Origin: Anaerolineaceae bacterium | GTDB taxonomy: Bacteria; Chloroflexota; Anaerolineae; Anaerolineales; Villigracilaceae | DNA length: 33,534 nt | Assembly (NCBI GenBank): GCA_003598975.1 | Contig: QZIJ01000016.1 | Span: 1 to 33,534, forward strand | Reading direction: 5' to 3' | Shown: in pieces, positions 3,020 through 33,534 of the stretch | How positions within the stretch are numbered: the first letter of the stretch is position 1 | How the letters are laid out: every line of letters starts with the position of its first letter | Position numbers and translations under genes: made by a program | The notes under the pieces: generated by a model | What the model saw: only the letters and a program-made list of their open reading frames with translations | Told to the model about the DNA's origin: nothing | Databases searched by the model: none

Positions 3020-4085
3020 GGCCGAGACACTCCACGCGGAAGGTCACCAGGATTTTCGATCCGACTTTCGGAGGCCTCACCATCTGGATGACGATCCCGC
3101 CTCCCAACCTGACCTCGAACTGCTCCCGACTAAACAGCACATCCTCCACTGACATTTTGAGGCGCGCCACCCGTCCGCCTTTGCGGCCCTGACGCAACAA
3201 CAAGGCGACGCGCTCCCCAACAACATGGTTGTGTTTGCATAACGGACGTAGGAATCCCAACTCCGTTTCGACCCTGCCATCGCCATTCATCTTCCCTTCG
3301 ATAACATTCCCAACGCCAAGGAAACGCGCCGCCCACGCGGACTGCGGATCGCTCCACACGTCGGCGGGAGTCCCTTCGCGGAGAATGATTCCCTCGTGCA
3401 GGAGAAGAATCCTGTCCGCGATGGCGAAGGCTTCCTCCTGGTCGTGGGTAACGTAGATGGCGGGGATTTGTGTCCGATGCAAGATGGCGCGCAATTCGTG
3501 GAGTAGTTCTTCCTTGAGGGTTCTATCCAGTGCACCGAGAGGTTCGTCGAACATGAGCAATCGAGGATGTGGTGCAAGGGCACGCGCCAGCGCCACGCGT
3601 TGCTGTTCGCCGCCAGAGAGATCGGTGACGCGGCGGTTGCCAAAATCCGTCAGGTTGACCAACTCCAATACTTCCGCCACGCGTTCCGACAATTTAGGAT
3701 TCACCACGAAGGCACCAAGGCTCGAAGACACCAATCTTTTATTTTGCTTCATGTCTTTGTGTTTTTGTGTCTTTGTGTTGGATTTCATCCTCAATCCAAA
3801 CGCGACGTTCTCGAAAACCGTCAGGTGCGGAAAAAGCGCGTAGTCCTGGAAGACCAGCCCAAAGTCACGCACATGAGGCGGGATGGGGGCGAGGTCGGCG
3901 CCATCCCAGAGAACGCGTCCCGCTTCGGGAGGTTCGAGTCCCGCGATGATTCGCAGCAGCGTGGACTTGCCGCTCCCCGACGCGCCCAGCAGGCAAATCG
4001 TCTCGCCCGCGCCGACGGTGAGGGAAACGTCGGTGAGCAGAGGTTGGTTTTCGTAGGTTTTAGAGACGTGAGAAATGGTGAGCAT
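3012..4085 (-). CDS. Thiamine ABC transporter, ATP-binding protein (ThiQ-like) with an in-frame repeat insertion
   Basis: This 357-residue ABC ATPase energises the import of thiamine or a thiamine phosphate. Visible motifs are Walker A GASGSGKST (34-42), Q-loop LVFQDYALFPHLTVFENV (77-94), signature LSGGEQQ (156-162), Walker B LLMFDEPLGALD (176-187) and the H-loop histidine in YVTHDQEEA (211-219). A TOBE-like C-terminal domain follows (about 280-355). Residues 103-129, between the Q-loop and the signature, are encoded by an 81-nt low-complexity inverted repeat (3699-3779) that relatives normally lack. It is in frame and all catalytic motifs survive, so the protein may still work. The start overlaps the permease stop by one base (TGATG). 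Substrate assignment rests on the neighbouring thiamine-binding protein, kinase and riboswitch; by sequence alone it could be called a ferric-iron-type ATPase. Confidence 0.88.
   Translation of the reverse strand: MLTISHVSKTYENQPLLTDVSLTVGAGETICLLGASGSGKSTLLRIIAGLEPPEAGRVLWDGADLAPIPPHVRDFGLVFQDYALFPHLTVFENVAFGLRMKSNTKTQKHKDMKQNKRLVSSSLGAFVVNPKLSERVAEVLELVNLTDFGNRRVTDLSGGEQQRVALARALAPHPRLLMFDEPLGALDRTLKEELLHELRAILHRTQIPAIYVTHDQEEAFAIADRILLLHEGIILREGTPADVWSDPQSAWAARFLGVGNVIEGKMNGDGRVETELGFLRPLCKHNHVVGERVALLLRQGRKGGRVARLKMSVEDVLFSREQFEVRLGGGIVIQMVRPPKVGSKILVTFRVECLGHA
3699..3779. repeat. Inverted 8-nt-period repeat inside the ATPase gene
   Basis: On the plus strand one arm consists of CACGAAGG, CACCAAGG and CTCGAAGA (3705-3728). 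The other consists of GTCTTTGT, GTTTTTGT and GTCTTTGT (3753-3776), which is the inverted version of a similar unit (CACnAAGr). The insert is exactly 27 codons, keeps the reading frame and separates conserved ATPase segments. The same architecture occurs between genes at 31526-31587. Confidence 0.8.
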
Positions 4086-5737
4086 CAGAATTCACCTGTG
4101 CCTGGCAGGCGCATTTTTTCGATGAGAAGAATCCCGACCAGCGTGACAGCCATCAAAATCGTGGACATGGCCATGGCCTGTCCATAGTTGAGGCCGCCTG
4201 GCTGGGAGAGGAAGCGGGCGATGGCGACGGGCAGGGTCGGGTAATCGGGACGAGCAAGGAGGGTAGCCGCGCCGAATTCGCCGAGGGAGACAGTGAAGGC
4301 AAACGTGGACGCGGCAAGGACGGCGCGAGAGAGAATAGGCCAGTCCACGGTCTGCCAGACACGGAAGGGAGAGGCGCCAAGCGCCGCGGCCGCGTGGCGG
4401 AGCCGTTCGGGAATGGAGGCGAGCGCGGGTTGGAGAGTCCGAATCACGAAGGGCAGAGCGATGATGGTATGGGCAAGGGGGACGATGAGAGGAGAAGTGA
4501 GCAGGATCCAGTGAGCAGAGGTCAGTGGTTCGTTGAAGGTGATGATGTAGCCGAGACCGAGGGTGACGGCGGACGCGCCGAGGGGGAGCATGATAAGCGG
4601 GTCGAGCAGTTTCGTCAGGCGGTTGGGATGGACAAGGGCGGAGGCGGCGGGGAATCCCAGCGCGAGGGAAAGGGCGACTGTCGCGGCCGCGTATCCCAGC
4701 GAGTTACGCGCCGCTTCAATGGGAGGGACGTAGAAGACAGAGCCACGGCGATTGATGAAAAGTTCGGTGTAATAGTCGGTGGTGAGGCCGTATTGGATTT
4801 CACCGCGCTGGCCAAGGTCCGCTTCGAGGCGGGTGAGGGAGCGGATGGGGAGGGAAACCAATGGTAAAACGAAAAACATAAAGAGTAAAAAGAACATGCC
4901 AAAGACAAGGATACGTTCGCGGATGGTTTTAGGCAGGCGGGATGAGGAGGGTTTGGGCGTGGTTGGGACGAGAGAACGCGTCACGACGCGGCTGTAGAGC
5001 GCGGAGAAGGCGAGGGTGCAAAGCAATTGGATGAGCGAGAGCAAAGCGGCCATCGGCAGGTTGAGCAGGTGCATGGCCTGAATGTAAATCTCCACTTCGA
5101 GGGTCGAGAACTGCGGTCCGCCCAAGAGGAGGATGACACCGAAACTGGTAAAGTCGAAGAGAAAAACCAACAGTCCCGCGGCAAGGAGGGGAGCACGTAA
5201 CAAAGGCAAAGTCACATTCCACCAAACATGCTTCGAGTCTGCGCCAAGAGTCCGCGCGGCCTGCTCGAGGCGCGGGTCGAGATGAGTCAACGCGTTGCCA
5301 ACGATGCGGATGACAATGGTTGTGTTGTAGAAAATGTGAGCGAGGAGGATGGCTGTGAGAGTGTTGGTAAATTGAAAAGAGTAAAGAGGGAAGAGGAAGG
5401 AAAAGAGTCCGCGCGGACCGAGGAGGGCATTGAAACCTGCGGCGACGACAACCGTGGGAAGCATGAACGGGACGGCGGTGAGGGCTCGCAGGAGGGATTT
5501 GCCGCGGAAGTCGAAGCGGGCGAAGAGAATGGCGGAGGGAAGTCCGAGGAGGAAGGTGAGGATAGTAGAGAGAAATGCCTGGTAAAACGTAAATCGTAAA
5601 ACGGAAAATGCGCGTTGAAGATTCTCGGCGGTGAGGACAGATAAATTGAGGGTGAGGGTGAGGGTGAGGATGCGCGCGAGAGGAAGGAAGAAGAAAACCG
5701 CTAAAAAGAGAACAGCGGGCAGGATGCGAAATTTCAT
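4085..5737 (-). CDS. Thiamine ABC transporter permease, fused two-domain (ThiP-like)
   Basis: This 550-residue protein has about twelve membrane segments and two permease domains. The cytoplasmic EAA loops, which dock onto the ATPase, are visible twice: EQAARTLGADSKHVWWNVTLP in the first half, and RHAAAALGASPFRVWQTVDWP in the second. Such fused permeases are typical of thiamine (ThiP) and ferric-iron (FbpB) importers. Thiamine is favoured here by the operon. Two 7-nt-period tracts (5582-5609 and 4864-4891) encode parts of hydrophobic segments, and a hexamer repeat near 5646 encodes an LTLTLT run in the first helix. The ribosome-binding site is poor, and the 83-nt gap upstream is filled largely by another heptamer array. 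Confidence 0.88.
   Translation of the reverse strand: MKFRILPAVLFLAVFFFLPLARILTLTLTLNLSVLTAENLQRAFSVLRFTFYQAFLSTILTFLLGLPSAILFARFDFRGKSLLRALTAVPFMLPTVVVAAGFNALLGPRGLFSFLFPLYSFQFTNTLTAILLAHIFYNTTIVIRIVGNALTHLDPRLEQAARTLGADSKHVWWNVTLPLLRAPLLAAGLLVFLFDFTSFGVILLLGGPQFSTLEVEIYIQAMHLLNLPMAALLSLIQLLCTLAFSALYSRVVTRSLVPTTPKPSSSRLPKTIRERILVFGMFFLLFMFFVLPLVSLPIRSLTRLEADLGQRGEIQYGLTTDYYTELFINRRGSVFYVPPIEAARNSLGYAAATVALSLALGFPAASALVHPNRLTKLLDPLIMLPLGASAVTLGLGYIITFNEPLTSAHWILLTSPLIVPLAHTIIALPFVIRTLQPALASIPERLRHAAAALGASPFRVWQTVDWPILSRAVLAASTFAFTVSLGEFGAATLLARPDYPTLPVAIARFLSQPGGLNYGQAMAMSTILMAVTLVGILLIEKMRLPGTGEF
4864..4891. repeat. Heptamer tract in permease gene (second half)
   Basis: Plus-strand units GTAAAAC, GAAAAAC, ATAAAGA and GTAAAAA follow each other at a 7-nt spacing. 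On the coding strand they give the Phe/Leu-rich residues of the first helix of the second permease domain (about residues 283-291). The unit family is the same as at 5582-5609 and 33138-33165. Confidence 0.6.
5582..5609. repeat. Heptamer tract in permease gene (first half)
   Basis: Units GTAAAAC, GTAAATC, GTAAAAC and GGAAAAT follow at exact 7-nt spacing. They encode about residues 43-52 of the permease, at the start of a membrane segment. Confidence 0.65.
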
Positions 5738-5758
5738 GGCAGGAGCGATACTCGAGAC

Positions 5759-5821
5759 TCAATATTCAATGTTCGAGGTTCGACCATTCGATGCCAAATA
5801 TCAAGTCTCGAATTATCGAAT
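5759..5821. repeat. Heptamer array between permease and binding-protein genes
   Basis: Nine units of 7 nt can be read, beginning TCAATAT, TCAATGT, TCGAGGT and TCGACCA and ending TCAAGTC, TCGAATT and ATCGAAT. They fill most of the 83-nt gap between the two genes and reach the stop codon of the binding-protein gene. No promoter or terminator is evident, so read-through of the operon is expected. Confidence 0.65.
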
Positions 5822-6933
5822 CAACGAAGCACCGCGTCGGTCCATTCCTGAATCCAGCGTTCGCGATTGGCGGCGATCACATCAGGTGCGAGTGCCGCAG
5901 GCTCGGTGGGGTATTCGTTGAACTGGTAGAACGAATCGGGCAGAATGGCGAGCGGATCCACGGGTAGAACGAACATCTGCAACGGAACATCCTCCTGGAA
6001 GGATAGGCTGAGCATGAAATCCACGAAACGCTCAGCGGCAGCGCGTTGACGGGTCCCCGCGAGGATGCCGACAAACTCGATTTGGCGGAAGCAGGTATCG
6101 GGTCCAACGATCGAGGCGGTGGGCGATTGCTCCAATTGCACGTCCGCGAAGATCACTTCCGCGGCAGGGCTGGTCGCATACGAGACGACCATTGTCTGGG
6201 AGCCGCGTCCCGACGAGGCGCTGAAATTGGTGTAGTAGGCGGTGTTCCAGTCGTTGACGACCACGAGGCCGTTGGCGCGCAGGGAGCGCCAAAAATCGAG
6301 ATAGCCTGGTTCGCCAAAGTGTGCAATGGTGGCCAGCAGAAATGCCAGGCCGGGCGAGGATGTGGCAGGGTTTTCAACCACCAACATGCCGTTGTATTCA
6401 GGCAGGATCAGGTCGCCGAGAGTTTGCGGCACGGCCAGTTCGTTCTTGGCGAAAAAGGCTTTATCGTAATTGATGCAGACATCGCCGTAATCCACAGGGA
6501 TGGCCCGCTTTTCCGCGTCGAGGCGGAACTCGGCGGGCACGTTGACGAGCGCGGGAGACTCGTAAGGCTCGAAGATGCCCGCGTCGAGGGCGCGCGAGAG
6601 GAATGTGTTGTCCACGCCGTAGAGCACATCCGCGAGCGGCGCGTCTTTCGAGAGGATGGCTTTGTTGAGCGCCGCGCCCGTGTCGCCGCTGGCAAGGAAG
6701 GTGACCTTAATGTTGTTTGATTGCTCGAACGCGGCCAGCACCGATTCGCTGATGGCAAACGAGTCGTGCGTCATCACGGTCAACGGGACGGGTTCGCCCG
6801 CGGAGAGCGGCTGGACCGTCTGCCCGGCGGGCGTCACGACAACTTCCATTTCGATGGGTGAGGGCGCGGTCGCCTGCGGCGCGCAGGAGGCGAGCAGAAG
6901 GCAGAAGGCAGTAAGCAGAAGAAGTTTTTTCAT
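5821..6933 (-). CDS. Thiamine ABC transporter substrate-binding lipoprotein (ThiB/TbpA-like)
   Basis: This 370-residue protein has a signal peptide with lipobox LASC (Cys17), so it is lipid-anchored on the outer face of the membrane. After a Thr/Pro-rich linker, features of the ThiB/TbpA family appear: LTVMTHDSFAISESVLAAFEQ, FLASGDTGAALNKAIL, ADVLYGVDNTFLSRAL, and DYGDVCINYDKAFF, which contains the aromatic residues expected to stack on the thiamine ring. It delivers substrate to the fused permease. The start ATG has a GGAAAGGA ribosome-binding site. Four copies of a 7-nt unit (6894-6921) encode most of the hydrophobic core of the signal peptide (about residues 5-14). The gene lies 36 nt after the kinase gene. 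Confidence 0.9.
   Translation of the reverse strand: MKKLLLLTAFCLLLASCAPQATAPSPIEMEVVVTPAGQTVQPLSAGEPVPLTVMTHDSFAISESVLAAFEQSNNIKVTFLASGDTGAALNKAILSKDAPLADVLYGVDNTFLSRALDAGIFEPYESPALVNVPAEFRLDAEKRAIPVDYGDVCINYDKAFFAKNELAVPQTLGDLILPEYNGMLVVENPATSSPGLAFLLATIAHFGEPGYLDFWRSLRANGLVVVNDWNTAYYTNFSASSGRGSQTMVVSYATSPAAEVIFADVQLEQSPTASIVGPDTCFRQIEFVGILAGTRQRAAAERFVDFMLSLSFQEDVPLQMFVLPVDPLAILPDSFYQFNEYPTEPAALAPDVIAANRERWIQEWTDAVLR
6894..6921. repeat. GCAGAAG heptamer tract encoding a signal peptide core
   Basis: Four consecutive 7-nt units on the plus strand read GCAGAAG, GCAGAAG, GCAGTAA and GCAGAAG. On the coding strand they give the Leu-rich core of the lipoprotein signal peptide. The same unit, in opposite sense relative to the gene, occurs inside ligA at 25396-25424. 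Confidence 0.75.
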
Positions 6934-6969: not shown

Positions 6970-7611
6970 TTACGATTGGCGACGGTGGATGATCAGCAAA
7001 ATTCCAGATTCGATTTCAATGTGCGCGAGATCGCCCGTCATCTCGTTGCTGATGCCGCGCGTCTTGTGCGGGACTAACGTTTCATTGGACAGCGGCCAGC
7101 GCAGGCCCTCGGTGCAAACGCCGCGGACTTCCCCACCCCAGGGAATCAACGAGACGAGGTCGCCGCGTCTCCCCTGGACCTCGGAGCGGGCGCGGCAAAA
7201 GGAGGCGGATTCCACACCGTCATCCAGTTTAAGGTCGAAGGTTGAAAGTCGAAAGTTGGTGAGCAGGGACAAGTTGCCGAGGGTCTGGTCGAGACGTCCA
7301 CCCAGCGCGGCGAGGATGACGATTTCGCGGCAGCCGTGTTCGATGGCGTAGTCCAGTGCGAGTTCAAGGTCGGTTTCGTTTTTGTCACGCGGAAATTCCG
7401 CCATCTCGATTCCATCATCTTTCATCTTTCTTCTTTCTTCTACTGAAATCGAATCGAGATCGCCAATGACGACCGATGGCGTCAGTCCCAACGCAAGGGC
7501 GTGACGCGTACCCCCGTCCGCGCAGATGATGAAGTCGTCGGAGCGGAGGAGTTGGCGGGCGGCGTCGAGGTCGGGAAGAGTCCCGTTGGCGAAGATCAGA
7601 CAGCGTGACAT
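6970..7611 (-). CDS. Thiamine pyrophosphokinase
   Basis: This 213-residue cytoplasmic enzyme transfers pyrophosphate from ATP to thiamine, giving TPP. Family motifs are CADGGTRHAL (30-39), VIGDLDSIS (48-56), FPRDKNETDLELAL (73-86), which carries metal and ATP ligands, and ALGGRLDQTLGN (102-113). The ATG at 7611 is preferred over the TTG one codon upstream, because that codon falls in the terminator U-tract and only the ATG leaves a GAGG ribosome-binding site at about 11 nt. Two heptamer tracts (7416-7443, residues about 57-66; 7231-7258, residues about 118-127) lie in loops outside the catalytic motifs. It is the first gene after the TPP riboswitch, so its product feeds back on its own expression. 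Confidence 0.92.
   Translation of the reverse strand: MSRCLIFANGTLPDLDAARQLLRSDDFIICADGGTRHALALGLTPSVVIGDLDSISVEERRKMKDDGIEMAEFPRDKNETDLELALDYAIEHGCREIVILAALGGRLDQTLGNLSLLTNFRLSTFDLKLDDGVESASFCRARSEVQGRRGDLVSLIPWGGEVRGVCTEGLRWPLSNETLVPHKTRGISNEMTGDLAHIEIESGILLIIHRRQS
7231..7258. repeat. Heptamer tract in thiamine pyrophosphokinase gene (distal)
   Basis: Units AAGGTCG, AAGGTTG, AAAGTCG and AAAGTTG occur at exact 7-nt spacing. They encode a variable loop (about residues 118-127) between the GGRLDQT motif and the C-terminal beta-sandwich. Confidence 0.75.
7416..7443. repeat. Heptamer tract in thiamine pyrophosphokinase gene (proximal)
   Basis: Units CATCTTT, CATCTTT, CTTCTTT and CTTCTAC occur at 7-nt spacing. 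They encode a charged loop (about residues 57-66) right after the GDLDS motif. Confidence 0.7.
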
Positions 7612-7612
7612 C

Positions 7613-7640
7613 AAAAAACCATCCTCAGCGGAGGATGGTT
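7613..7640 (-). terminator. Riboswitch-controlled terminator abutting the kinase start codon
   Basis: On the minus strand a 10-bp stem (7631-7640 with 7617-7626) around a 4-nt loop is followed directly by a U-tract (7613-7618) and then the ATG at 7611. The only Shine-Dalgarno candidate (GAGG) is in the 3' arm of this stem, so the same hairpin would both stop transcription and hide the ribosome-binding site. Confidence 0.88.
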
Positions 7641-7648
7641 GGCGAGAC

Positions 7649-7733
7649 GAGGTTCCCTCCGCTGGTATTAACCAGATCAGGTGTTGCGGGTCGAGCGATC
7701 ACGCTCCTCTCAGCCTGTGAGCCAGGCTCCCCG
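7649..7733 (-). promoter_or_regulatory. TPP riboswitch (THI element)
   Basis: Read on the minus strand, this segment contains the conserved THI-box elements in order: GGGGAGCC, GGCTGAGAGGA, GACCC, ACCTGATCTGGTTAATACCAG and CGGAGGGAA. The CTGAGA and ACCTGATC sequences form the two TPP-sensing arms (pyrimidine and pyrophosphate pockets) in known structures. It lies between the operon promoter and a terminator that abuts the start of the pyrophosphokinase gene. Binding of TPP is expected to favour the terminator and shut off thiamine uptake and activation. Confidence 0.97.
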
Positions 7734-7785
7734 TTCAATTGTGCTGAAGGTTCAATATTGAACGTTGAAGGTCTGTTGCGAGTGT

Positions 7786-7814: not shown

Positions 7815-7826
7815 CCTGCAACATTT
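7798..7826. repeat. Heptamer tract overlapping the thiamine operon promoter
   Basis: Units AACCTTCC, AACTTTC, AACCTGC and AACATTT lie next to each other (7 or 8 nt each) just after the hydrolase gene. A related palindromic stretch, GTTCAATATTGAAC, lies nearby at about 7750-7763 in the leader. Confidence 0.6.
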
Positions 7827-8613
7827 AGCGTACTCTGCGTTTCCACTCCTCTTTGAGTTGCAGTTCCTGCGGACTGACGCCCGAGTCGAGGGCGAGGAAG
7901 TCGATCAGCAGGCGGTTGAATTTCTGGGTTTCATCCATCATGGGGAAATGGCCCGAGCCGTCGAAAATGACGTTGTGCATCATATGCGAAATCGCGGATT
8001 GTTTCTCGGTGGATGGAGGAGGAATGGCAGGATCGTTCTGTCCATAGACAAAGAGGCAGGGCAGGTTGGTCTGACGTGCCGCGCCAAAAAAATTGTTGGC
8101 CTGAAGCGAATCCATTGAGACGGTAATCGCCAATGGATCGGTCTTGCCCGCGTCGGAGAGTGCGGCCACCAATTCGGGCGCGCGGCTGGAGAGCCAATCC
8201 ACCAGTTCTACAGGCTGGGCCGTCCACAGTCTGGTGTGAACAGATTCGTAATCCATCGGGCAGTTGACAGCCATCATGCGATCCACGCTTTTGGGCCAGC
8301 GCCTGGCAAAATTAAGAGCCACCAGCCCGCCCAGCCCATGTCCAACGATGGCGATCTTGCCAATACCCATTTTGTCCATGAAGGCGCTGAGCATGTCTGC
8401 CTGGTGATCCAGATGGTATGCCTGCTGGTTATGGGCGGTCTCGCCAAACCCCCACAAGTCGAGCGCGTAGGCGCGATAGGAGGTGGAAGTCACCTGCATG
8501 GATGGAATCCAGTACTTCCAGGAGCCCACCCATCCGTGCAGGAAGAAGACCGGGCGTCCCTTGCCCAGCACCTCGTAGTGGACGATCGCGTTATCGAGAA
8601 AAACGACGCTCAT
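7825..8613 (-). CDS. Alpha/beta hydrolase homologue lacking the nucleophile serine
   Basis: This 262-residue alpha/beta-hydrolase-fold protein has the oxyanion-side HGWVGSW motif (26-32) and retains the expected acid (Asp194 in YGQNDP) and histidine (His222 in GSGHFP). The nucleophile elbow reads GHGLGG (91-96), with Gly at position 93 instead of Ser. The N-terminal 96 residues align without gaps to the hydrolase at 20433-21266, which has GHSMGG with Ser93, so the two are paralogues. It may be a non-catalytic binding protein or use an unusual mechanism. It is the last minus-strand gene of the large block, 84 nt after the receiver gene, with a hairpin between. No clear ribosome-binding site is seen. 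Confidence 0.85.
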   Translation of the reverse strand: MSVVFLDNAIVHYEVLGKGRPVFFLHGWVGSWKYWIPSMQVTSTSYRAYALDLWGFGETAHNQQAYHLDHQADMLSAFMDKMGIGKIAIVGHGLGGLVALNFARRWPKSVDRMMAVNCPMDYESVHTRLWTAQPVELVDWLSSRAPELVAALSDAGKTDPLAITVSMDSLQANNFFGAARQTNLPCLFVYGQNDPAIPPPSTEKQSAISHMMHNVIFDGSGHFPMMDETQKFNRLLIDFLALDSGVSPQELQLKEEWKRRVR

Positions 8614-8654: not shown

Positions 8655-8691
8655 CGTGTTGCGTATTACGTAATCAGGTTACGCAACACGC
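8655..8691. repeat. Inverted heptamer hairpin between hydrolase and receiver genes
   Basis: An 11-bp inverted repeat (CGTGTTGCGTA at 8655-8665 with its complement at 8680-8690) is built from 7-nt units TGTTGCG, TATTACG, TAATCAG, GTTACGC and AACACGC. There is no U-tract, so it is a weak terminator candidate at best. Confidence 0.65.
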
Positions 8692-8697: not shown

Positions 8698-9072
8698 CTA
8701 CTTTCCAAATTTTGCCAGAATGGCCTTCACGCGCTCCGTCAGTTGATCGGGAGCAAAGGGCTTGAGCAGGTATTCCTCCGCGCCTACCTCCAACCCGGTC
8801 TGGATTTCGCTTTCCTGTCCCTTGGCAGAGAGGAAAACAATAGGAATGTCCTTCAGCCTCGGTTCAGCCTTAATGATGCGACAGGCGTCGTAACCGGTCA
8901 TGCGCGGCATACGCACATCCATGAGAATCAAATCTGGATTCTCTTTGGGCGCCAATTGCACGGCCTCCTCGCCATTGGAAGCGGCCACCACTTCATGCCC
9001 GGCAAAGCGCAGGGTAAATGCCACCAAGTCTCGAATATCCCGTTCGTCTTCAGCGATTAGTATTTTTGCCAT
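8698..9072 (-). CDS. Single-domain response regulator (CheY-like receiver)
   Basis: This 124-residue protein is a receiver domain only. The acidic pocket is AEDE (7-10), the phospho-acceptor is Asp52 in LILMDVRMP, and the conserved lysine is Lys104 in YLLKPF. The start at 9072 is chosen because MAKILIAEDE matches the usual beginning of receivers and has a GAGG ribosome-binding site; a start 8 codons upstream would add unrelated residues. The gene overlaps the 3' end of the giant kinase gene by 23 nt, so the pair is co-translated and this receiver is its most likely phosphorylation partner. It has no output domain, so it presumably acts by binding another protein. Confidence 0.93.
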   Translation of the reverse strand: MAKILIAEDERDIRDLVAFTLRFAGHEVVAASNGEEAVQLAPKENPDLILMDVRMPRMTGYDACRIIKAEPRLKDIPIVFLSAKGQESEIQTGLEVGAEEYLLKPFAPDQLTERVKAILAKFGK

Positions 9073-12000
9073 TCTTGCCTCGCCCAGATGGGCCAATATG
9101 ATGTGCAGGGAGTGTAAAGGAGAAGGTACTGCCTTCGCCCGGTATGCCTTTGCTGGTCATCCAGATGCGTCCGTGGTGCATCTCGACCAACTGTTTGACA
9201 ATCGGCAATCCCAAGCCGGTACCGGGGGTTGCAAGCACAAGCGGATGCTCGCCGCGGTAGAACCGCTCGAAAACGCGTTCCTGGTCTTCGGGAGAGACAC
9301 CCACGCCAGTGTCCGTCACATCCACCCGGACTTCACCATTCTCGGAATGCAGGCGCACTTGAATCTGTCCATCCACCGGCGTGTAGTGATAGGCATTGTC
9401 CACCAGATTGTCGAGAATCTGGCGTACCCGCTCTGAATCGCCGAAAACGCGCGGCAATTCCTTGGGCGCTTCCAGCGAAATGGCCATGGGTTTGTTCTCT
9501 TCCTGCGAACGGCGGAGAATGTCGGCCAGCACATCCTCGGCAACTTCGCGCAGGTCGAGGGGTTGTGGGGCAAGCGTCACCCGTCCCGCCTCGATGCGGG
9601 AGATGTCCAGCAGGTCGTTCACCAAGATGTTGAGCCGCTCAGTATTGTTCTTGATGATCTGCAGGAAATGCGACTGATTCTCGTTCAATGCACCCGCCGC
9701 GCCCAAAAGCAGGATGTCGGCGTAGCCGCGAATAGATGTCATCGGGGTGCGAAGTTCGTGACTGACAGTCGCGACAAACTCGGACTTGAGGCGGTCCACT
9801 TCGACCTCGTGCGTGATGTCACGGAAGATGGACACCGTGCCGAGGAAGTCGTTCTGCAACATGACGGGTGCGAGATGCACGAGAACAATGCGCTTGTTAT
9901 CCAGCTCGATTTGTTCGGCATAAGAATCACCCGCCTGATAGGAAGCAGAATTTTCCGACCAGCCGCGGATGGTTTGCATCCAGGCGGCCGCGGCCTTGCC
10001 AAACAGCCCGCCAAAGGTATCCAACGATTGGCCGAGGATGTGGCTGGATGGCAGGTCGAGAATATGTTCTGCAGAGTTGTTAATAAACGTGACCCTGTTG
10101 TCGAAACCGGTCACCAAAACGCCATCCGCCACGGCTTCCAGGATGGCCTGTGAACGGCTCGCCTCTTCCTGTTGCTTGCGGAGCATTGTGCCAAGGCGTT
10201 CGGCCTGGTCACGAATGAGTTCATAAAGGTGGGCATTGTTGATGGCAACCGCCACCTGTCCGGCGATGGCTTGCACGAGATTGAGAATTTCGGGACTGAA
10301 GTGCGCTACCTTGCGATGGAAGACCATCAACACGCCGATCACATCCTCGCCCACCAACATGGGCGCGACAATGCCAGACCGATGTTCGCGCGAACCGGCC
10401 GAAACGCGCACCCAACGCGGATCCTGATGCAGGTCTTCGATGAGGACCGCCTGGCGATTTTCCAAAACCCAGCCGGCCAATCCCTCGCCCACGCGCAGAG
10501 TGACGGCCTTGCTTTCCTCCACGGCCTGGCGCGTGAGGTAACCATACCCCGCGCGATAATGAAGCAAATTGTCATCGGGTTGCAACAGCATGATCGTCCC
10601 CTGCTCCGCGCCGATGGCCTCGTTCAAAAGCGCCAGGGTGCGATTCAGGGCGCGATCCAGGTCGAGGCTGGAGGAAACCTCGGTGAGGATGCGCAGGAGG
10701 GTTTCCGTGTTCTGCTGTTCGCGTTGTAATTGGGCAGTGCGTTCCACCACGCGTTGCTCAAGTTCCTCGGCCAGACGCTGGGTCTCGGCAAACAACCGTC
10801 CATTCTGGATGGCAACGATGGCCTGGTTTGCCAAAGTGCTGAGAATCTGCAAATCATCCTGATTGTATACATTCGCCTGGTAGCTCTGCGCGGACAACAC
10901 GCCGATGGTCTCGCCACCCAGCGTCATGGGAACAGCCAGAATGGAGGAGGGCGTGCCCTGCTCCCCATAAGTGACGCCTCCCAATTCGTCCACCTGCTCC
11001 ATGCCGTGGATAAGCAATGGCTCCCCACTTGCAATGATATGTCCGCTCAAGCCTGCACCAAGCGGCAGGCGCTGATTGGGAGAGCGCTGGTCGCCATCAA
11101 TGAGATAGACACCATTAACTTCCTGATTCTCTTTATCGAGCAGGGCAATCGCAAATGCTTCCACAGGCATCAATCGCTGAACGGCCTTGTGAATAAAAAC
11201 GTAAATTTCCTCCGGGTCAAGGCTGGAATTGATCTCGCTACTGACCTGATTAAGAATGGCGAAACGCTCGGCCGTTCGAACTGTGGACTGATATAGACGG
11301 GTATTTTCAAGGGAAATAGATGTCTGATTACCGATTGTGCGCGCCAATTCGATTTCGTTCAGGCCAAAACGTGTATCTTCGCCGCCGTGGACGAGTACCA
11401 ACATACGGGTTTCCGCCGTTCCCACAGGCAAAATGAGCAATCCGCGTGTGTCGCTCCCCAGAAAGTCACGGAGCGGCAGGGTCTCAGTGTCAATGCGCAC
11501 ATCCTCTGTGGTGTAAACTCCCTGCGACTCGAGCAGACGGGTGAAGAGCGGCGCATCGGGAACAGACCTCGACAATGCACGGCGGGAATGCGGCAGGACG
11601 CTCTTTAATGCCCCTTTTCCACGTTCAAAAGCGACAACGGAAACGCGTAACGCGCCAAGGGCTGTCAACAACTCTTGCGCGGATAGTTCCACAATCTGCT
11701 CCGAATCGAGCAAGCCGCCCAGTGCGGAGGAGAAGCGATTGAGCAGGGCCAGGCGCTGGGAGCGTTGATCCAGTTCGGCGGCGCGGTTCAGGCTGTCTTC
11801 AAACAGGCGGGCATTTTCCAACGCCACCGCCGCCTGGCTGGCGAAGGTAGTGGCTACCTGGATATTTTCACTCGTATAAAAATTGGCCTGTGATTTTTCG
11901 AGCGCGATCAGTCCGATCACTTCGCCCTTTGCCATCAGGGGGATGCCCATCCACGAAAGGCGCGGCGCTTCGAGCGGCGGGAAACGCGGATCCTCGCGCA

Positions 12001-15000
12001 CGTCGCCCACAACGAGAGGCTGGCCGGCGCGGATCATCTGCTTGAACAGGGCGCTGTCGGTCAGTTGAACTTTCAGGCCAAGCAATTGCTCCGGGTCCGG
12101 GAATCCGCGGGAGGCGTGGACTGTCAGCTGTTCCTTCTCGCGCATCCACAAGGTGGCGGTATCATACGGCAGAACCGGTGACAACTGATCCAGCAGTGAC
12201 GCGATCAAGTCGCGGCGTTGCAGGCTGGAGGTGATGGTGGCGGCCACATCTGTGAGGGCCTGCAATTGCCCGGCGCGTTCCTCCGTGGCCTGCATCAGGC
12301 GGACGTTTTCAAGCGAGAGTGCCACTTGTTGCGAAAGCGAGATCAACAGGGTCTCATCCACAGGCTTGAAAGCCGCGGGGGTATTGAAGTTATCCAGCAC
12401 CAGCACGCCCAAATTATGCTCGCCCGCAAGAATGGGAACCAGCAGGCTGGAAACCGGCAGGCGGCCGCCGGTAACACGGCGATAGAGCATCAACCCATCC
12501 GTGTTCAATGGGTAATCGCGGGTCAGGTTGAACTCATCCACGCGACGCGGCTTTCCACTGGCAAAAACCACGCCGGGCAGGGCCTCGCCGGCCGCGAAGG
12601 AAATTTCCTTCATGCCTTCGTTGTCAGCATAACCCGAAACGGCGCGCGGCACCAATCGCAGAGACTGGGCATCCCACAACAACACCGACCCGGCATGGGC
12701 GGCGGAGATGACGCGGCGGGCACTGTCCAGAAGGGCGCGCACAATATGATCGGGATTCAGGCCGCTCAACTGGCGGCTGAAGTCGAGCAGGAGATCCACT
12801 TCCTGCAGGCGGCGGCGTGTCTCGCCGAGCAGGGAAATATTCTGCAAAACCACACCCGTCTGGCGGGCGATCTGGTAATACACTTGGCGATCCTCATCGG
12901 TGAGCCCGGCCATGGCTTCCGGCGAGACCGCCAGCACCCCAGCCTCCACGCGATTTTCGATCTTGATGGGCAGGCATACGACGCCCTTGGCACGCAGGCC
13001 GGAAAGAAGGGCGGACTCGCGCCATTCATCGTTTTCTTCGAGATTGGGGATGATGATCGACTCGCCCGTTTGCAAGATGGTGCGCAGAGGATTCCGTTGC
13101 CCAAATAACGCTTCAGGGTTGACAGACTTCGGCACGCTTCCCAGAACCTGGAGCAGGCGCGGCCCATCCGGCGATTCCTCGGCGATCAGCGCCACCGACA
13201 TGCTCAATTGGGTGAGCATCTCGCGGCCAAGCGCCAGAAGCGCGGACGGCGCGTCGATTTGACTGCTGACTTTTTCGGTGATGGCCAGTCCCGCGCGAAT
13301 ACGCTGGACGCGGCGATCCAGGTCGTGAATGGAGATGGTTTGGTCGAGATCCTTGCGCAGAAGCGTGGGGAGATCGTTCTGGGTGACGGAAAGCAGTCGT
13401 TGCTGGCGTTGCAGGCCGGAGGTCAGGGAATCGATGCGGTTCTTCAATTCCTGCGTGCGGCGTTGGGTGAAAATGACCAGTTCGGCCTGCGCGGCAAAGA
13501 CTTCCAGTGTTTCCAGCGTGGCGCGGTCGGGGCGCAGATTGTTGCGCGGCGCGTCCACGCTCAACAGGCCGAGCGGCTGTCCCTGCGGGTCTTCGAGCGG
13601 AAGGAGCAGGAAGTCCTCCGGGTCCCAGGCATTTTCGATCCTGCCCTGATCGGCGGCATGAAGCAAAATGACAGTATGCGCGTCTGCGGGAATCACGGGC
13701 GTCTTGTCGGCGGGGATCAAATAGGAACGCCCGATCTTGAATTCGGGACGGAGTAATTGTTGAATGCTTTGAAGCGGTTGTTTGCGAGAAAGCAATTCCT
13801 GCAGGGTCTCATCCGGCAGGCCCACGCCAGCCATGCGCCGAAGCAACCCGCTTTCAAGTTCGTACATGCTCAGCAGTGCAACCTGGAATGGGGTGGCCTG
13901 CTGGATGGCTGACGCGATGGCAAGCAATGATTTTTCGAGCGGGTATTCAAAATTCGTGGTGGAAGAAATCTCCGCCAGGCGCGTCAGGGCTGTAGCGCGG
14001 TTTTTCAATTGCTCCGCGGCCTGGGTCTGTTCCTGGAAACGACGCGCATTACCTAACGCGATGGCGGCCTGTAATGCCAGGGTCTGCAAGGTATCGAATG
14101 CGGACTGGTCAAAAGCATTCGGGGCGGGTGAATGCAGGTTGATAATGCCAAGAATCCTGCTTTGGTGCACGATCGGTACGACCAGCGCCGAACGGACATC
14201 CTCATGAGGCGGGCGGAGCAGGTCCGATTCGAAATCGGGAAAAACGAGCGGTTCGCGCCGAACGAGGGCTTGACGCGTCAGCGAGGTGAGCGGCTCCTCG
14301 ACCGGGCAACCCAGCCGATACGTTACGCGCGGCTCGAGCGGATCGGAATCGGGGTCGAAAAGCAGGATGGTGCCGCAGTCGGCGCGCGCCATCCGCAGGC
14401 TCTGTTCGTGGATCACCTCAAGCAGGCGGGAGGGGTCCATGGAAGCGTTGAGTTCGCGGGCCACGTGGGTGATGGCGGTCAATTGCTCGACGCGGCGGCG
14501 CAAAGTTTCGTCAGTCTGGTTGAGAAGGGCGGCACCTTCCACGGCCGCGGCCAGCAGGCCGGCCGCGGTGGAAAGCATCTGCATATCATTGGAATTGAAG
14601 AAGTCCGCCACGCGACTGCCGATCATCAATTCGCCCAGACTGCGTTCACGCGCCAGCAACGGGACAAGGATAACTGATTCCACGCGGACCAAATCGAGGA
14701 TGCGGCGATAGACGGGGGAAACGCGTTCATCCACGCTCAAGCGTCCCGAGAGGAAGGAACGCTGAGAACCAGAGACCGTGGCGAGACGCAATTCACGTTC
14801 GCTGGCCTGCATTCGCTCCAGGGAGCGGACTGTCTCGGGCGGAACGCCCCACACAGAGTCGAGGTGGGCGCGCAGTTCGTGGGTTTGCTCGTCCAGCAGA
14901 TAAATGGCGGCAACATCCGCACGCAGGAGTTGGGTCAGGTCCGTCACGGAAAATTGCAGGATTTCATCGAGCGTGGCGGAGGAAGCCACCAGGCTGGCGA

Positions 15001-25171: not shown

Positions 25172-28458
<3,287 letters not shown>

Positions 28459-28535: not shown

Positions 28536-28698
28536 CTCTCATCTCCCAGAATATCCTGTCGGAATTGGCACCGTTCTCAGTTTTCAGTGTTCAGTTTTCA
28601 GTTTTCAGTGACTGGTCACTGATGACTGATTATCGAATACTGATTGAGTGGTTGTCGAGGCATCACAGGGCCGGTCCCTCCGCCTCTCTGGATAAGAG
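28536..28698 (-). promoter_or_regulatory. SAM-I (S-box) riboswitch with an expanded P3 stem
   Basis: On the minus strand the conserved S-box elements appear in order: P1 arm CTCTTATC, AGAGAGGCGGAGGGA (kink-turn), CCGGCCCTGTGATGCCTC, GACAACC, then after a long insertion GGTGCCAATTCCGACAGG and the P1 closing arm GATGAGAG. The P3 stem, normally short, is replaced by about 70 nt of 7-nt repeats whose halves are inverted, with an apical perfect 8-bp hairpin (28605-28612 with 28615-28622). The aptamer core is intact. It should lower metK expression when SAM is high. Confidence 0.93.
28578..28647. repeat. Ten-unit heptamer array inside the SAM riboswitch
   Basis: Plus-strand units at exact 7-nt spacing are CAGTTTT, CAGTGTT, CAGTTTT, CAGTTTT and CAGTGAC, then TGGTCAC, TGATGAC, TGATTAT, CGAATAC and TGATTGA. 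The first half is rich in CAGT and the second in its complement ACTG, so the array folds back on itself and forms the P3 extension. Confidence 0.85.
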
Positions 28699-30620: not shown

Positions 30621-30658
30621 TGGAGCGACTGATCTGTGAAGGCATCCGATGAGGCGGG

Positions 30659-30664: not shown

Positions 30665-30683
30665 TTCCAAAAAAGAGGAATCC

Positions 30684-30938
30684 ATGAGCAAATACCATAC
30701 CGGCACCGAAGAGTTCCGCGTTAACGGTGAAGAACTCGTCGCCAAGATCAAACAACTTTTGCACGAAGGCAATGTCCGCCGCATTATCATCAAGGACAAG
30801 GAGGGGCGCACGCTGATCGAGGTCCCGCTCACGCTGGGGGTGGTAGGCGCACTGCTCGTCCCCGTGTGGGCGGCCATCGGCGCCATCGCCGCGCTGGTGG
30901 CGGAAGCGACCGTCGTTGTGGAGAAAGTGGAGCAATGA
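30684..30938 (+). CDS. DUF4342 domain protein
   Basis: This 84-residue protein matches DUF4342: TEEFRVNGEELVAKIKQLLHEGNVRRIIIKDKEGRTLIEVPLTLGVVGALLVPVWAAIGAIAALVAE. It has an amphipathic N-terminal half and one hydrophobic Gly/Ala-rich helix, and is probably a small membrane-associated protein. The function of the family is unknown. The ATG follows an AGAGGA ribosome-binding site and the stop overlaps the next gene by 4 nt (ATGA), so the two are translated together. Confidence 0.88.
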   Translation: MSKYHTGTEEFRVNGEELVAKIKQLLHEGNVRRIIIKDKEGRTLIEVPLTLGVVGALLVPVWAAIGAIAALVAEATVVVEKVEQ

Positions 30939-31516
30939 CGCGCGACTACGATCTGACATCCCAGCCGCCGACGGCGAATCAACGCCTGCCCGAAACCACG
31001 CGTGACGAGGAGTGGATTCGTTCCTTCCTGCGCTTCGCCCAAATCGGACGCGTTGCTACAACCTGGGACGACCAGCCGTTCGTCACACCGACGACATTCT
31101 GGTACGACGAGGACAACCGGCGCATCATTTTCCATTCCAACCTGGCGGGACGCGTGCGCGCCAACCTCGAGCGCAATCCAAAGGTCTGTCTCGAAGCCAG
31201 CGAGATGGGACGGTTGCTCCCCTCGAACGTGGCGCTGGAATTTTCGTTGCAATATCGGAGCGCGATGGTTTTCGGGACGGTTCGCATCCTCGAATCGGAT
31301 GAGGAAAAACGAGCCGCGCTCTACGGCTTGTTGAAAAAATATTTCCCCGAGATGGAAGCGGGACGCGAGTATCGTCCGATCACGGACAAAGAGTTGAAGC
31401 GGACGTCGGTTTACGAGTTGCGAATCGAATCGTGGAGCGGGAAGGAAAACTGGAACGAGCGTGCCGAGCAATCGGATGAGTGGCCTGCGTTGGATGAGAA
31501 GTGGTTTTCTAGTTAA
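30935..31516 (+). CDS. Pyridoxamine 5'-phosphate oxidase-fold flavin-binding protein
   Basis: This 193-residue protein has the split-barrel fold of the pyridoxamine-phosphate-oxidase-related and NimA-like families: FLRFAQIGRVATTWDDQPFVTPTTFWYDEDNRRIIFHSN, GRVRANLERNPKVCLEASE, SAMVFGTVRILESDEEKRAALYGLLKKYF. Members bind FMN or F420 and catalyse reductions or oxidations of small molecules; the substrate is not evident. The N-terminal 25 residues are polar and probably disordered. The start overlaps the DUF4342 gene by 4 nt. Confidence 0.88.
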   Translation: MTRDYDLTSQPPTANQRLPETTRDEEWIRSFLRFAQIGRVATTWDDQPFVTPTTFWYDEDNRRIIFHSNLAGRVRANLERNPKVCLEASEMGRLLPSNVALEFSLQYRSAMVFGTVRILESDEEKRAALYGLLKKYFPEMEAGREYRPITDKELKRTSVYELRIESWSGKENWNERAEQSDEWPALDEKWFSS

Positions 31517-31525
31517 TCAACTTTT

Positions 31526-31587
31526 TTACCACCAAGATCGCCAAGAAAACCATTAAATCTTTGCGCCCTTTGCGTGCTTCGCGGTAA
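31526..31587. repeat. Inverted short-period repeat between convergent genes
   Basis: Ends TTACC (31526-31530) and GGTAA (31583-31587) pair. The left arm has CACCAAGA-type units and the right arm CTTTGCGC, CCTTTGCG and TGCTTCGC at 8-nt spacing. It fills the gap between two convergent genes and could act as a transcript end. Architecture and unit type match the insert in the thiamine ATPase gene at 3699-3779. Confidence 0.75.
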
Positions 31588-31590
31588 GTT

Positions 31591-33192
31591 TCACTTCGCG
31601 AACTCCCAAAACGCGAGGGCGGATTGTTCGATGGCCGTGACCAGTTTCAGGTCGTTGGTGGGATTTTCCCCAGGGTAGCCGAAGATGAGGATGACGTAGG
31701 CGCGCGAGTCCCATGTCACGATGGCGGCGTCGCCGATGACAAGGCGTCCGTCGGTGATGGTGCCGCGCTTGTTGTAGAATTTTCCATCAGCGGGAAGGAG
31801 CGGACGCAAAACGCCGAGACGTGTGTCGTCGCTGGGAGTGTATTCAGCCATCAAATCAAGGATGATCTGCCGCGCTTGTGGTTGGACAAATTCACCCTGA
31901 TAGAGTCCCGCAAGGAGATGCGCGACCTCGTCTAGGGGCGCGGTGCGGCGGAAGACGTTGACATTGGGCGCGCCCCATTCCGATAGAGTAGCGGTGATGT
32001 CCATACCCGATTGACGGACATATTCCAGCAGGCTCTCTGTGGCCTTCTCGTCCGAGTTGACGAGCATGTCGTGGAGGGCCTGCGAGAGGAGGAATCCGTT
32101 TCCGTGCGATTCGAGGTAGGCAGGAAATTCTTCGGGGGGAATGTTTTTCGCTTCGAGACTTTTGAATAGCAACATCGCGATGGGGACTTTGACCACTGAG
32201 GCGATATGGACCGCGTCCGTGCCGAGACGGTCGTGGACGACGCTCCCCGCCCCGAGGTCCAGGATGACCGAATGCCATTCGCCGCCCGCGTCCGCGAAGA
32301 TGGAGTCCAAATTGTCGGCCAGTTGAATCTCTGCAGAGGAGAAATCCTGCACGGGAGTTTTGAAGCGCCAGATATCGAATCCGCCGTAGCCTGTGAGGCC
32401 GATCCAGTTGTTTTTGGATTCGTCCGTCCACTCGTAGAATTGACCGAGGCCCGGCTGGGCGGGATCGTAGAGCATCACTTCTCGGATGACGTAATAGTAA
32501 TTGGGATAGGGCTGGGTGTTGAGGTTGGTGACGGTGTAGGCGCGGCCCGCCTCGTCCACGCGGGTGACGGTGAGGATGTGCTCGAAGGTGCCGTTATCGC
32601 CCGCGTAGAGGTAGAGGAAATCGCCCGCCTTAAGGGGAAATTGGCTGAAATCAAATTCGCTCGTGGATTGCTTGAAGAAAAAATGCTCGAAGCGGTCTTC
32701 GGGAAATACTTTTAGGAGTAAATCTGCATTTGTGTCGGGACGCATCAGCCAGAAGTCGTGCGGGTCCACGTAGCGGCTGAGGAGGCCTGCGTCGCGCAGT
32801 TGGGAGATGGCGAGCGGCCCGCACATGTTGGAGGGGTCGGGATATATCATGTAGTTGATGCGCTCGGCCATTTGCTGGGCATCCTCCTGCGTGGAGGCGA
32901 GGAAGGTCTGCGCGATCTGGTTAAGGCGGTCTTTTTGGGCGCGGGTCAGGATGTCGGTATCGGGGAGTTCGGTGGATGTGGGCGTTCCAGGTTCCACGTT
33001 CCACGTTTCAAGTGTGGGTGTGGGAGTTTCAAGTTCCACGTGCGGGGTTTCCCCTGCGGGGATGATATCAAGTGTTGGAGTAGCGGATGAAATTGCGGAC
33101 GCGGAAGGAGGGGGAATCGGAGCGCAGGAGGAGAGGAGTAAAACGAAAAACGTAAAACGTAAGATGATGGAGGAAAGTTTGGAGGAGGACAT
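31591..33192 (-). CDS. Lipoprotein: papain-like (C39-type) domain fused to a class A beta-lactamase-fold domain
   Basis: This 533-residue lipoprotein has lipobox LSSC (Cys23) and a Thr/Pro/Glu-rich linker (about 25-80). An N-terminal cysteine-peptidase-like domain follows: NMCGPLAISQL with Cys124, and FEHILTVTRV with His205. The C-terminal serine beta-lactamase/transpeptidase-like domain (about 290-533) has Ser332-x-x-Lys335 in ASVVKVP, an SDE motif (380-382) in place of SDN, and KRG (475-477) in place of KTG. The combination suggests a cell-wall or peptide-processing role outside the cell, not classical beta-lactam resistance. A 56-nt heptamer array (32984-33039) encodes the linker and another (33138-33165) part of the signal peptide. 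A TAAACT -10 lies 6 nt before the ATG. Confidence 0.85.
   Translation of the reverse strand: MSSSKLSSIILRFTFFVLLLSSCAPIPPPSASAISSATPTLDIIPAGETPHVELETPTPTLETWNVEPGTPTSTELPDTDILTRAQKDRLNQIAQTFLASTQEDAQQMAERINYMIYPDPSNMCGPLAISQLRDAGLLSRYVDPHDFWLMRPDTNADLLLKVFPEDRFEHFFFKQSTSEFDFSQFPLKAGDFLYLYAGDNGTFEHILTVTRVDEAGRAYTVTNLNTQPYPNYYYVIREVMLYDPAQPGLGQFYEWTDESKNNWIGLTGYGGFDIWRFKTPVQDFSSAEIQLADNLDSIFADAGGEWHSVILDLGAGSVVHDRLGTDAVHIASVVKVPIAMLLFKSLEAKNIPPEEFPAYLESHGNGFLLSQALHDMLVNSDEKATESLLEYVRQSGMDITATLSEWGAPNVNVFRRTAPLDEVAHLLAGLYQGEFVQPQARQIILDLMAEYTPSDDTRLGVLRPLLPADGKFYNKRGTITDGRLVIGDAAIVTWDSRAYVILIFGYPGENPTNDLKLVTAIEQSALAFWEFAK
32984..33039. repeat. Eight-unit heptamer array encoding a lipoprotein linker
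   Basis: Plus-strand units GTTCCAG, GTTCCAC, GTTCCAC, GTTTCAA, GTGTGGG, TGTGGGA, GTTTCAA and GTTCCAC occur at exact 7-nt spacing. On the coding strand they give residues about 52-69 of the linker (Glu, Thr, Pro and Val-rich). Confidence 0.8.
33138..33165. repeat. Heptamer tract encoding part of a lipoprotein signal peptide
   Basis: Units GTAAAAC, GAAAAAC, GTAAAAC and GTAAGAT occur at 7-nt spacing and encode the ILRFTFFVL core of the signal peptide. The unit family is the same as in the permease gene. Confidence 0.7.
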
Positions 33193-33198
33193 GGGGGG

Positions 33199-33204
33199 AG
33201 TTTA
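33199..33204 (-). promoter_or_regulatory. -10 hexamer for a leaderless fusion-lipoprotein mRNA
   Basis: TAAACT (minus strand) is followed by six C residues and then the ATG at 33192. A GGGACA at 17 nt upstream matches the -35 consensus at four positions. The C6 spacer contains no ribosome-binding site. Confidence 0.5.
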
Positions 33205-33243
33205 ACACGAAGAGAATGATTTGTCCCGCATGAACGGGAGAAC

Positions 33244-33321
33244 AACCGTCCACGAATTTCACACGAATAATCGAATGGACACGCGCCCATATTCGTCATC
33301 GTTCCCCATTCGTGGACGGTT
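33244..33321. repeat. 78-nt element with 14-bp terminal inverted repeats
   Basis: AACCGTCCACGAAT (33244-33257) is exactly complementary to ATTCGTGGACGGTT (33308-33321). The interior has further CGAAT-type repeats. It meets the reverse transcriptase remnant at its 3' end and supplies the last codons and stop of that frame. Confidence 0.65.
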
Positions 33322-33439
33322 TGCGTTCAAAACCCGCCACTTGGGTTTTGCCGCGTTTGCCTTTGCGTGCTTTGTAGTAGGCAATGAGCAGGTTTTCGAA
33401 ACCACATACTTGCGCGTACAGATGTTTGAAAGTTTTCAT
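33296..33439 (-). pseudogene. N-terminal remnant of a reverse transcriptase gene
   Basis: An ATG with an AAAAAGGAG ribosome-binding site opens a 47-codon frame. Its first residues, MKTFKHLYAQVCGFENLLIA followed by YYKARKGKRGK, resemble the N-terminus of bacterial retron/diversity-generating/group II-related reverse transcriptases (FENLxxAxxKARKGKR). The similarity stops where the frame enters a short inverted-repeat element, and no catalytic YxDD region follows before the next gene. It is therefore most likely a stub left by insertion or deletion. A small independent protein is possible but less likely. Confidence 0.6.
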
Positions 33440-33468
33440 AGATTCTCCTTTTTGGAATTTTTTTAAAA

Positions 33469-33486
33469 TCCCGCCTTGCGGCGGGA
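33469..33486 (-). terminator. Hairpin upstream of the reverse transcriptase remnant
   Basis: TCCCGCC and GGCGGGA form a 7-bp GC stem with a 4-nt loop, followed on the minus strand by ATTTT. It could end a transcript entering from beyond the window edge. Confidence 0.5.
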
Positions 33487-33493
33487 GGGCTAC

Positions 33494-33534
33494 GAGCACA
33501 GAGCACAGAACGCAGAAAACAGCAAACAGAAAAC
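33494..33534. repeat. Heptamer array at the right edge
   Basis: Units GAGCACA, GAGCACA, GAACGCA, GAAAACA, GCAAACA and GAAAAC run at 7-nt spacing to the end of the window and may continue beyond it. Confidence 0.75.

Follow-up and report, generated by a model that had tools for sequence, protein, structure and literature searches.

Dispersed heptanucleotide arrays with biased polarity of inverted pairs in genomes of the Anaerolineales

Heptamer tracts in a contig of an uncultured bacterium

Short tandem arrays of degenerate 7-nt units were examined in a 33,534-nt stretch of DNA (contig QZIJ01000016.1; hereafter, the window) from an uncultured Anaerolineaceae bacterium. The window is a complete contig (33.5 kb) of a 3.94-Mb genome that comprises 149 contigs and is 84% complete. 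This genome is denoted G000; further genomes, with other G numbers, were compared with it, one genome per species, and individual loci are denoted by L numbers. The arrays are real, widespread in the group, and patchily distributed among its lineages. The closest named relatives of a ThiP-like ATP-binding cassette (ABC) permease encoded in the window are metagenome-assembled genomes of the Anaerolineales (Chloroflexota), with at most 81% identity; the host is not a cyanobacterium.

The original prediction listed heptamer tracts at 12 places in the window and a related unit at 4864. Nine of these 13 sites are clear at lag 7 and one is moderate, while those at 4864, 5759-5821, and 8655-8691 are weak (Table 1). 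The coding sites lie in genes for an ABC permease, a solute-binding protein, thiamin pyrophosphokinase (two sites), DNA ligase (two sites), and a Beta-lactamase2-like protein (two sites). As had been proposed, tracts occupy open frames at a signal-peptide-like start, in a Thr/Pro linker, and in length-variable regions, as judged by reading of the sequence, and one tract lies within a riboswitch, which is an S-adenosylmethionine (SAM) riboswitch. The recurrence of units as families was also borne out: the AAGGCAG class occurs at 6894 and 25396, the AAAACGT class at 5582 and 33138, and TGATGAC at 26691 and near 28613. Array edges are fuzzy.

Table 1. Positions in the window of the sites checked for lag-7 periodicity and of the associated features
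Site checked	Match at lag 7	Feature span	Strand	Feature
		3752-3778	-	8-nt relative (TGTCTTTG) in ABC ATPase gene (3012-4085)
4864	weak (15/29); best lag 12			
5582-5609	clear	5582-5609	-	AAAACGT-class heptamer tract around conserved FTFY in ThiP-like ABC permease gene (4085-5737)
5759-5821	weak (28/56); mainly hairpin	5752-5811	.	Hairpin with heptamer-like arms in spacer between solute-binding protein and permease genes
6894-6921	clear	6894-6921	-	AAGGCAG-class tract near start of solute-binding protein gene (5821-6933)
7231-7258	clear	7231-7258	-	AAAGTCG-like tract within thiamin pyrophosphokinase gene (6970-7614)
7416-7443	clear	7415-7443	-	AAAGATG-class tract in thiamin pyrophosphokinase gene
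8655-8691	weak (16/30)	8655-8691	.	Intergenic hairpin of GCGTGTT/GCGTATT-like units with 11-bp inverted repeat, upstream of hydrolase gene (7825-8613)
25396-25424	moderate (16/22)	25396-25427	-	AAGGCAG-class tract in ligA (25172-27298), residues ~624-634; variable region with other arrays in other genera
26691-26718	clear	26691-26721	-	TGATGAC tract in ligA, residues ~193-203; second array-bearing variable region
28578-28647	clear	28573-28647	-	Long hairpin of GTTTTCA/TGATGAC arrays, extending one stem of SAM riboswitch (28536-28698)
32984-33039	clear	32984-33039	-	GTTCCAC tract in Thr/Pro-rich stretch of Beta-lactamase2-like gene (31591-33192)
33138-33165	clear	33138-33165	-	AAAACGT tract at signal-peptide-like start of Beta-lactamase2-like gene (ILRFTFFVLLLSSC, by reading)
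33494-33534	clear	33494-33534	.	GAGCACA/ACAGAAA tract at contig end

The permease probably merits the name ThiP, judging from the adjoining thiamin genes. A thiamin pyrophosphate (TPP) riboswitch lies at 7635-7743, upstream of the thiamin pyrophosphokinase gene, with no listed tract inside it, and the operon with this riboswitch resembles one for thiamin uptake. In locus L004, the spacer corresponding to that between the solute-binding protein and permease genes carries clear TATTCGA arrays. Elsewhere in the window, an open reading frame (ORF) of 2483 amino acids (9050-16501) occupies more than one-fifth of the contig.

A seven-nucleotide rhythm in DNA

When the window was scanned at a score of at least 12, seven tracts appeared at lag 7; lags 6 and 8 gave a single tract apiece, and lags 2-5 and 9-13 were empty. 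Lags 14, 16, and 21 returned one tract each, and these overlap the 7- and 8-nt tracts. The single lag-6 tract above a score of 12 lies in the permease gene at 5647-5669 and consists of 3.8 exact copies of TGAGGG. A scan of 833,534 bases of G000 at a lower score yielded 0, 0, 3, 53, 13, 15, 1, 1, 9, and 0 tracts at lags 4 through 13, respectively, and 13, 8, and 0 tracts at lags 15, 16, and 17. An excess at lag 7 was also detected in 400 kb of G001. The window is denser in tracts than G000 (10 in 33.5 kb versus 53 in 833 kb, a count that includes the 10), and by simple proportion the whole genome should contain about 250.

Third-order Markov sequences (three replicates, modeled on 433 kb of G000) contained no tracts at lags 5-10 or 12, compared to 25 observed at lag 7, indicating that the excess is not due to chance. 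When synonymous codons were shuffled within each gene across 1.07 Mb of coding DNA from G000 and G001, the number of tracts at lag 7 fell from 53 to 1.0, compared to 7 to 5.2 at lag 6, 9 to 0.6 at lag 8, and 11 to 5.2 at lag 9. This collapse indicates that neither protein sequence nor codon usage generates the rhythm, which is a property of the DNA. The genome-wide excess at lag 7 that had been predicted is supported and stands against both the other lags and the controls. Among the 53 tracts in G000, 38 are inside ORFs of at least 100 amino acids (called mechanically and covering 90% of the DNA); intergenic DNA is enriched in tracts, yet is not their main location.

The same periodicity was evident among relatives. 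In 80 named loci (1.31 Mb), 121 tracts were identified at lag 7 and 18 at lag 8, with 1-9 at each of the other lags tried. Samples from relatives ranged from no tracts in 40 kb to six in 20 kb. In a permease tree of 81 rows, the 34 tract-rich rows were clustered (13 changes versus a shuffled mean of 26.1), with one clade tract-rich in 15 of 15 rows and another in six of 37; the label and the tree derive from the same region, tract columns included, and a number of loci are short. Tracts are concentrated in the thi operon, at 26 per 100 kb compared to 4.4 elsewhere in the named loci.

Shared units, biased polarity, and orthologous genes

Tracts draw on a restricted set of units. Outside the thi region, 75 units account for 137 tracts, compared to 124 (minimum 115) in 500 letter shuffles, and 23 units are common to thi and non-thi tracts, compared to an expectation of five and a maximum of 13 in 500 shuffles. 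Pairs of tracts with the same unit are about fourfold more frequent within genomes (73 of 1535) than between genomes (91 of 7781), and none of 2000 label permutations reached 73.

The favored units also differ among genomes. Searches of 41 genomes with three-copy patterns (at most two mismatches, overlapping matches inside one array scored separately) returned 142 matches to AAAACGT in G021 and 47 in G000, with 25 genomes lacking any, and 231 matches to AATTACC in G023 and 46 in G000, with 21 genomes lacking any. The same patterns written backwards returned no matches in G000, G021, or G023 and 0-5 per genome across the 41, except for 12 in G010 for AATTACC (nine forward); backward matches outnumbered forward ones in G008, G012, G014, and G019 for AATTACC and in G017, G022, G024, and G030 for AAAACGT. 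A pattern intended as a scrambled control, three copies of CACTAAT, proved unsuitable because it is itself a unit: it matched 10 of the 41 genomes, with 38 matches in G004, most of them at three places, and when reversed it reads as a rotation of itself. A search of viral contigs for (CCAATTA)4 returned two stretches, compared to none for a scrambled pattern, and is too small to use.

Flanking DNA in G000 showed no matches among 10 AAAACGT arrays or among seven AATTACC arrays. Outside arrays, the favored heptamers have z scores of at most 3.0, compared to 5-6 for the top heptamers; favored heptamers are thus not clearly over-represented as single copies, and abundant single heptamers were rejected as the seeds of arrays. 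The sharing of units without flanks in G000, together with their ordinary single-copy frequency, suggests that mere amplification of heptamers already in place should not yield this pattern. Long arrays found at lag 14 match at 0.824, 0.832, 0.811, and 0.779 at lags 7, 14, 21, and 28. Growth by chain-copying of the last unit was therefore not favored: apart from a slight drop at lag 28, the values are nearer to a star model with one fixed unit, as if each copy of that unit had decayed on its own. Units containing small palindromes are not clearly enriched, whether counted by tract (77 of 227; null 64) or by distinct unit (30 of 101; null 33).

Inverted pairs, in which arrays stand head to head, are strongly, though not absolutely, polarized. 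Among 71 inverted pairs with 7-, 8-, or 9-nt units, the left arm is purine-rich in 57, pyrimidine-rich in 11, and neither in three, and 13 of the 14 unit families with at least two inverted pairs show a single polarity. A hairpin is identical from either strand, so this polarity belongs to the element. Outside the thi neighborhood the split within families is 29:1, a value reached in one of 20,000 random draws. In G000 and G001, left arms of arrays are purine-rich 15:0, compared to 133:100 for ordinary hairpins (even ones left out). Two families with other unit lengths were also noted. Head-to-head arrays of a 9-nt family (ACACAAAGG and relatives) occur at L129:3036-3094, L129:17133-17260, and L279:13151-13219, with the purine-rich arm first in all three pairs. 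A hairpin-forming 8-nt family (GTACACAA, GTAAACAG, GTAGACAG) occurs in several genera (L125:10066-10143, L130:9515-9584, L275:14208-14300).

Comparison of orthologous genes revealed variation in place. At the FTFYQA motif of the permease, the residues are conserved and tract-free relatives have no gap over them, whereas the surrounding DNA is periodic in some species only, with units that vary (TTTTACG, TTACTCG, or ACGCAAC). This suggests that the tract is mostly a length-neutral change around conserved codons rather than a simple insertion. At a second permease loop, L008 is 63 nt longer than L009, and the extra DNA consists of ACTGATC-like units. In ligA, 11 of the 18 lag-7 or lag-8 tracts found in 31 genes fall in two regions, around residues 200 and 629; there the units change between genera, several arrays are followed by their own inverse (by reading), and extra DNA is likewise present. 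In the region near residue 200, L239 and L258 (from G011 and G030) carry GC-rich CCCCTCTCCC-type hairpins in frame. L013 and L014 differ from each other by 7- and 14-nt steps in an intergenic hairpin. The original prediction, against which orthologs sharing the same residues without periodic DNA would speak, was thus in part contradicted at one site, FTFYQA; the second loop and ligA show extra DNA.

Origin of the arrays and comparison with known systems

The reading that we favor, although only at about even odds, is that these cyanobacterial-style arrays originate in error-prone DNA synthesis at 3' ends and are then dispersed and simply tolerated. Under this scenario, DNA synthesis, most likely in the course of repair, would slip or switch template so that a 7-nt unit is recopied at a 3' end. 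Short arrays, a few units long, would then be copied to unrelated loci without flanking DNA, giving rise to genome-specific favored units, and selection would act only as a filter, permitting survival between genes, in linkers, in signal peptides, in variable regions of enzymes, and in a riboswitch stem. The data themselves show the arrays to be real, rhythmic at the DNA level, patchy among lineages, and built from shared units, with no common flanks in G000 and a polarity bias in inverted pairs; the 3'-end synthesis with its 7-nt register, the ectopic copying (most simply in break repair), and the lack of function are inferences from that pattern. The available data narrow the mechanism and do not solve it. 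Loss of mismatch repair is excluded, since MutS_I was found in 24 of 25 genomes, including all ten that bear tracts. DinB was not found in tract-bearing G022, G025, and G030, and the first two of these also gave no match to an RVT_1 reverse transcriptase, although a divergent reverse transcriptase could be missed; neither factor thus fits all the tract-bearing genomes searched. A 323-amino-acid reverse transcriptase at L302:202-1173 is the sole RVT_1 match in its incomplete genome, and its best PADLOC match is a generic reverse transcriptase model.

Several observations weigh against this scenario. Unit lengths of 8 and 9 nt occur besides 7. G000 supplies 65 of the 73 same-unit pairs within genomes, leaving eight of 310 without it. 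Flank alignments do exist among 47 arrays of G023 (17; the six listed are one neighboring-array pair or pieces of 15-18 nt) and among 16 arrays of G021 (one, 14 nt). An exact-arm search of the 41 genomes placed AATTACC in one polarity at 14 loci (13 in G023) and in the opposite polarity at five (three in G023), and found the minority polarity of AAAACGT at 10 loci in five genomes; the 8:1 majority for AAAACGT pertains to the studied loci only (exact 10-nt arms), and two of the eight, L013 and L014, are probably orthologous. Gap lengths at coding tracts are only mildly enriched in multiples of seven residues (8.7% versus 2.2% at 70-80% identity; 3.7% versus 3.0% at 45-60%). Plain slippage, for its part, leaves unit sharing unexplained. 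Finally, no responsible enzyme was found, and ectopic copying was not seen to happen in a set with one genome per species.

Local polymerase slippage alone, with a 7-nt length set by the polymerase footprint and shared units reflecting a biochemical preference as local heptamers grow, is a credible but rather doubtful alternative. It accounts for the fixed length and for small changes in place, for the merging of arrays into conserved codons (e.g., CCAGTG in LigA and FTFY in the permease), and for the unit-wise differences between L013 and L014. However, units should then track local heptamer frequencies, whereas the single-copy frequency of the dominant units is unremarkable and the favored units vary from genome to genome. 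Selection for RNA hairpins such as terminators, mRNA stabilizers, or riboswitch stems could instead have built the arrays, and the SAM-riboswitch and spacer hairpins do fold more stably than shuffled sequences (z = -4.38 and -3.10). Moreover, 17 of 35 ORF-placed 8-nt tracts have an inverted partner (score at least 13/16; null 0.3). Yet a close inverted partner is uncommon among 7-nt tracts (15 of 227 at 12/14 or better; null ~1.3), 166 of the 227 lie in ORFs, ordinary hairpins are much weaker in polarity, and hairpin arms in general, which were rejected as a source of the rhythm, match themselves only slightly at lag 7. We therefore consider selection for hairpins quite unlikely.

The biased polarity separates directional synthesis at 3' ends from symmetric models, and such directionality could also come from a templating enzyme, telomerase-like or a DRT10-like reverse transcriptase, that extends 3' ends at breaks so that joined ends form head-to-head arrays. 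This would suit the genome-specific units, the lack of shared flanks in G000, and the purine-rich left arms, and DRT10 is reported to synthesize tandem-repeat cDNA on an RNA template (PMC12632851). But one unit per genome would be expected, and 50 tracts of G000 use 29; opposite-polarity pairs exist; RVT_1 was not found in the two tract-bearing genomes named above; G000 and G023 carry reverse transcriptases of unlike types, neither of which has UG17 (DRT10) as its best match; and DRT10 product length is described as variable, 9 nt in the main system (PMC12632851). An enzyme of this kind is accordingly very improbable. A broader variant, still improbable, regards the arrays as interstitial telomere-like DNA: at chromosome breaks, a directional, perhaps templated, activity would extend exposed 3' ends by a purine-rich unit of 7-9 nt, end joining would fix single or head-to-head arrays, and the units would shift between lineages, leaving the arrays as scars of break repair. 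Chance, protein repeats, or low-complexity codon use has next to no likelihood; some tracts are pyrimidine-rich and code for hydrophobic stretches, as such an origin might produce, but the Markov and synonymous-shuffle controls contradict it and lag 7 (with minor lags 8 and 9) stands out.

If directional 3'-end synthesis is correct, the arrays would point to an unrecognized activity at DNA ends in bacteria. The Anaerolineales could settle why a 7-nt length prevails, as they offer related genomes with and without the trait, favored units that differ, and the same gene regions with different arrays; with these genomes, the origin and spread of such arrays become testable. Annotators should note that, in this group, protein heptads such as ITNYQLP or VLRFTFY can originate in the DNA rather than at the protein level.

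The nearest named class is the short tandemly repeated repetitive (STRR) sequences of heterocystous cyanobacteria, which likewise comprise degenerate 7-nt units in tandem at many loci. STRR hosts belong to another phylum, and STRR sequences are mainly outside coding sequence, whereas many tracts here (38 of 53 in G000) are in coding DNA; head-to-head polarity was measured here. Since host group and location differ, we do not claim STRR membership. The predicted resemblance in form was nonetheless supported: seven stretches of cyanobacterial plasmids (Nostoc, Tolypothrix, Dolichospermum, and Planktothrix; 334 kb), chosen from the matches of a search for such repeats, gave the same peak, with 34 tracts at lag 7 compared to 0-7 at each other lag tried. 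The match list also yielded a 50-kb Streptomyces stretch, in which lag 7 gave no tract. AATTACC, AATTACG, AAATCGT, AAACAGT, and AACAATT occur in both the cyanobacterial plasmids and Anaerolineales; these five of 20 distinct cyanobacterial units, compared to 2.0 expected (29 of 1000 shuffles reach five), come from plasmids pre-selected for such repeats, and the identity of units across phyla is suggestive only. Separately, seven of 18 plasmid records matching the heptad peptide ITNYQLP are Klebsiella plasmids (53-60% identity), suggesting that heptamer-like arrays may occur there.

Rickettsia palindromic elements, repetitive extragenic palindromic (REP) elements, and miniature inverted-repeat transposable elements (MITEs) are likewise small, tolerated in frame within genes, and often hairpins. 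The arrays of G000, by contrast, lack the conserved ends or flanks of a REP- or MITE-type mobile element, and their units vary. In many bacteria, heptamers are the commonest long repeat unit, for which a polymerase footprint has been proposed (Mrazek, 2007, as cited in PMC4679880 and PMC4692102); the question and this proposal date from 2007, and the portions of the literature consulted hold no answer. Those long simple sequence repeats, as the citing passages present them, exceed the length that statistics predict, whereas the arrays described here are short, decayed, and dispersed in a genome-specific manner, in a group that is not named there. Titles, abstract openings, and passages of the literature consulted report no heptamer arrays in the Anaerolineae. 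Within the same phylum, the passages available describe heptamer satellites, (GATAGRA)n, in Chloroflexus aurantiacus, which are also heptamer-derived repeats (PMC6749651). For marine Beggiatoaceae, dispersed TAACTGA repeats are described whose single favored unit resembles the ACTGATC family of the present arrays; most of these repeats lie between genes, frequently immediately before a start codon, and one inverted case is included (PMC4679880). As far as the accounts consulted go, the directional addition of short tandem repeats by DRT10 and telomerase may represent a route to the present arrays; neither such an enzyme nor a template RNA was found here. Relative to these systems, the arrays are in part known in kind, and the evidence for their dispersal and polarity is the new part.

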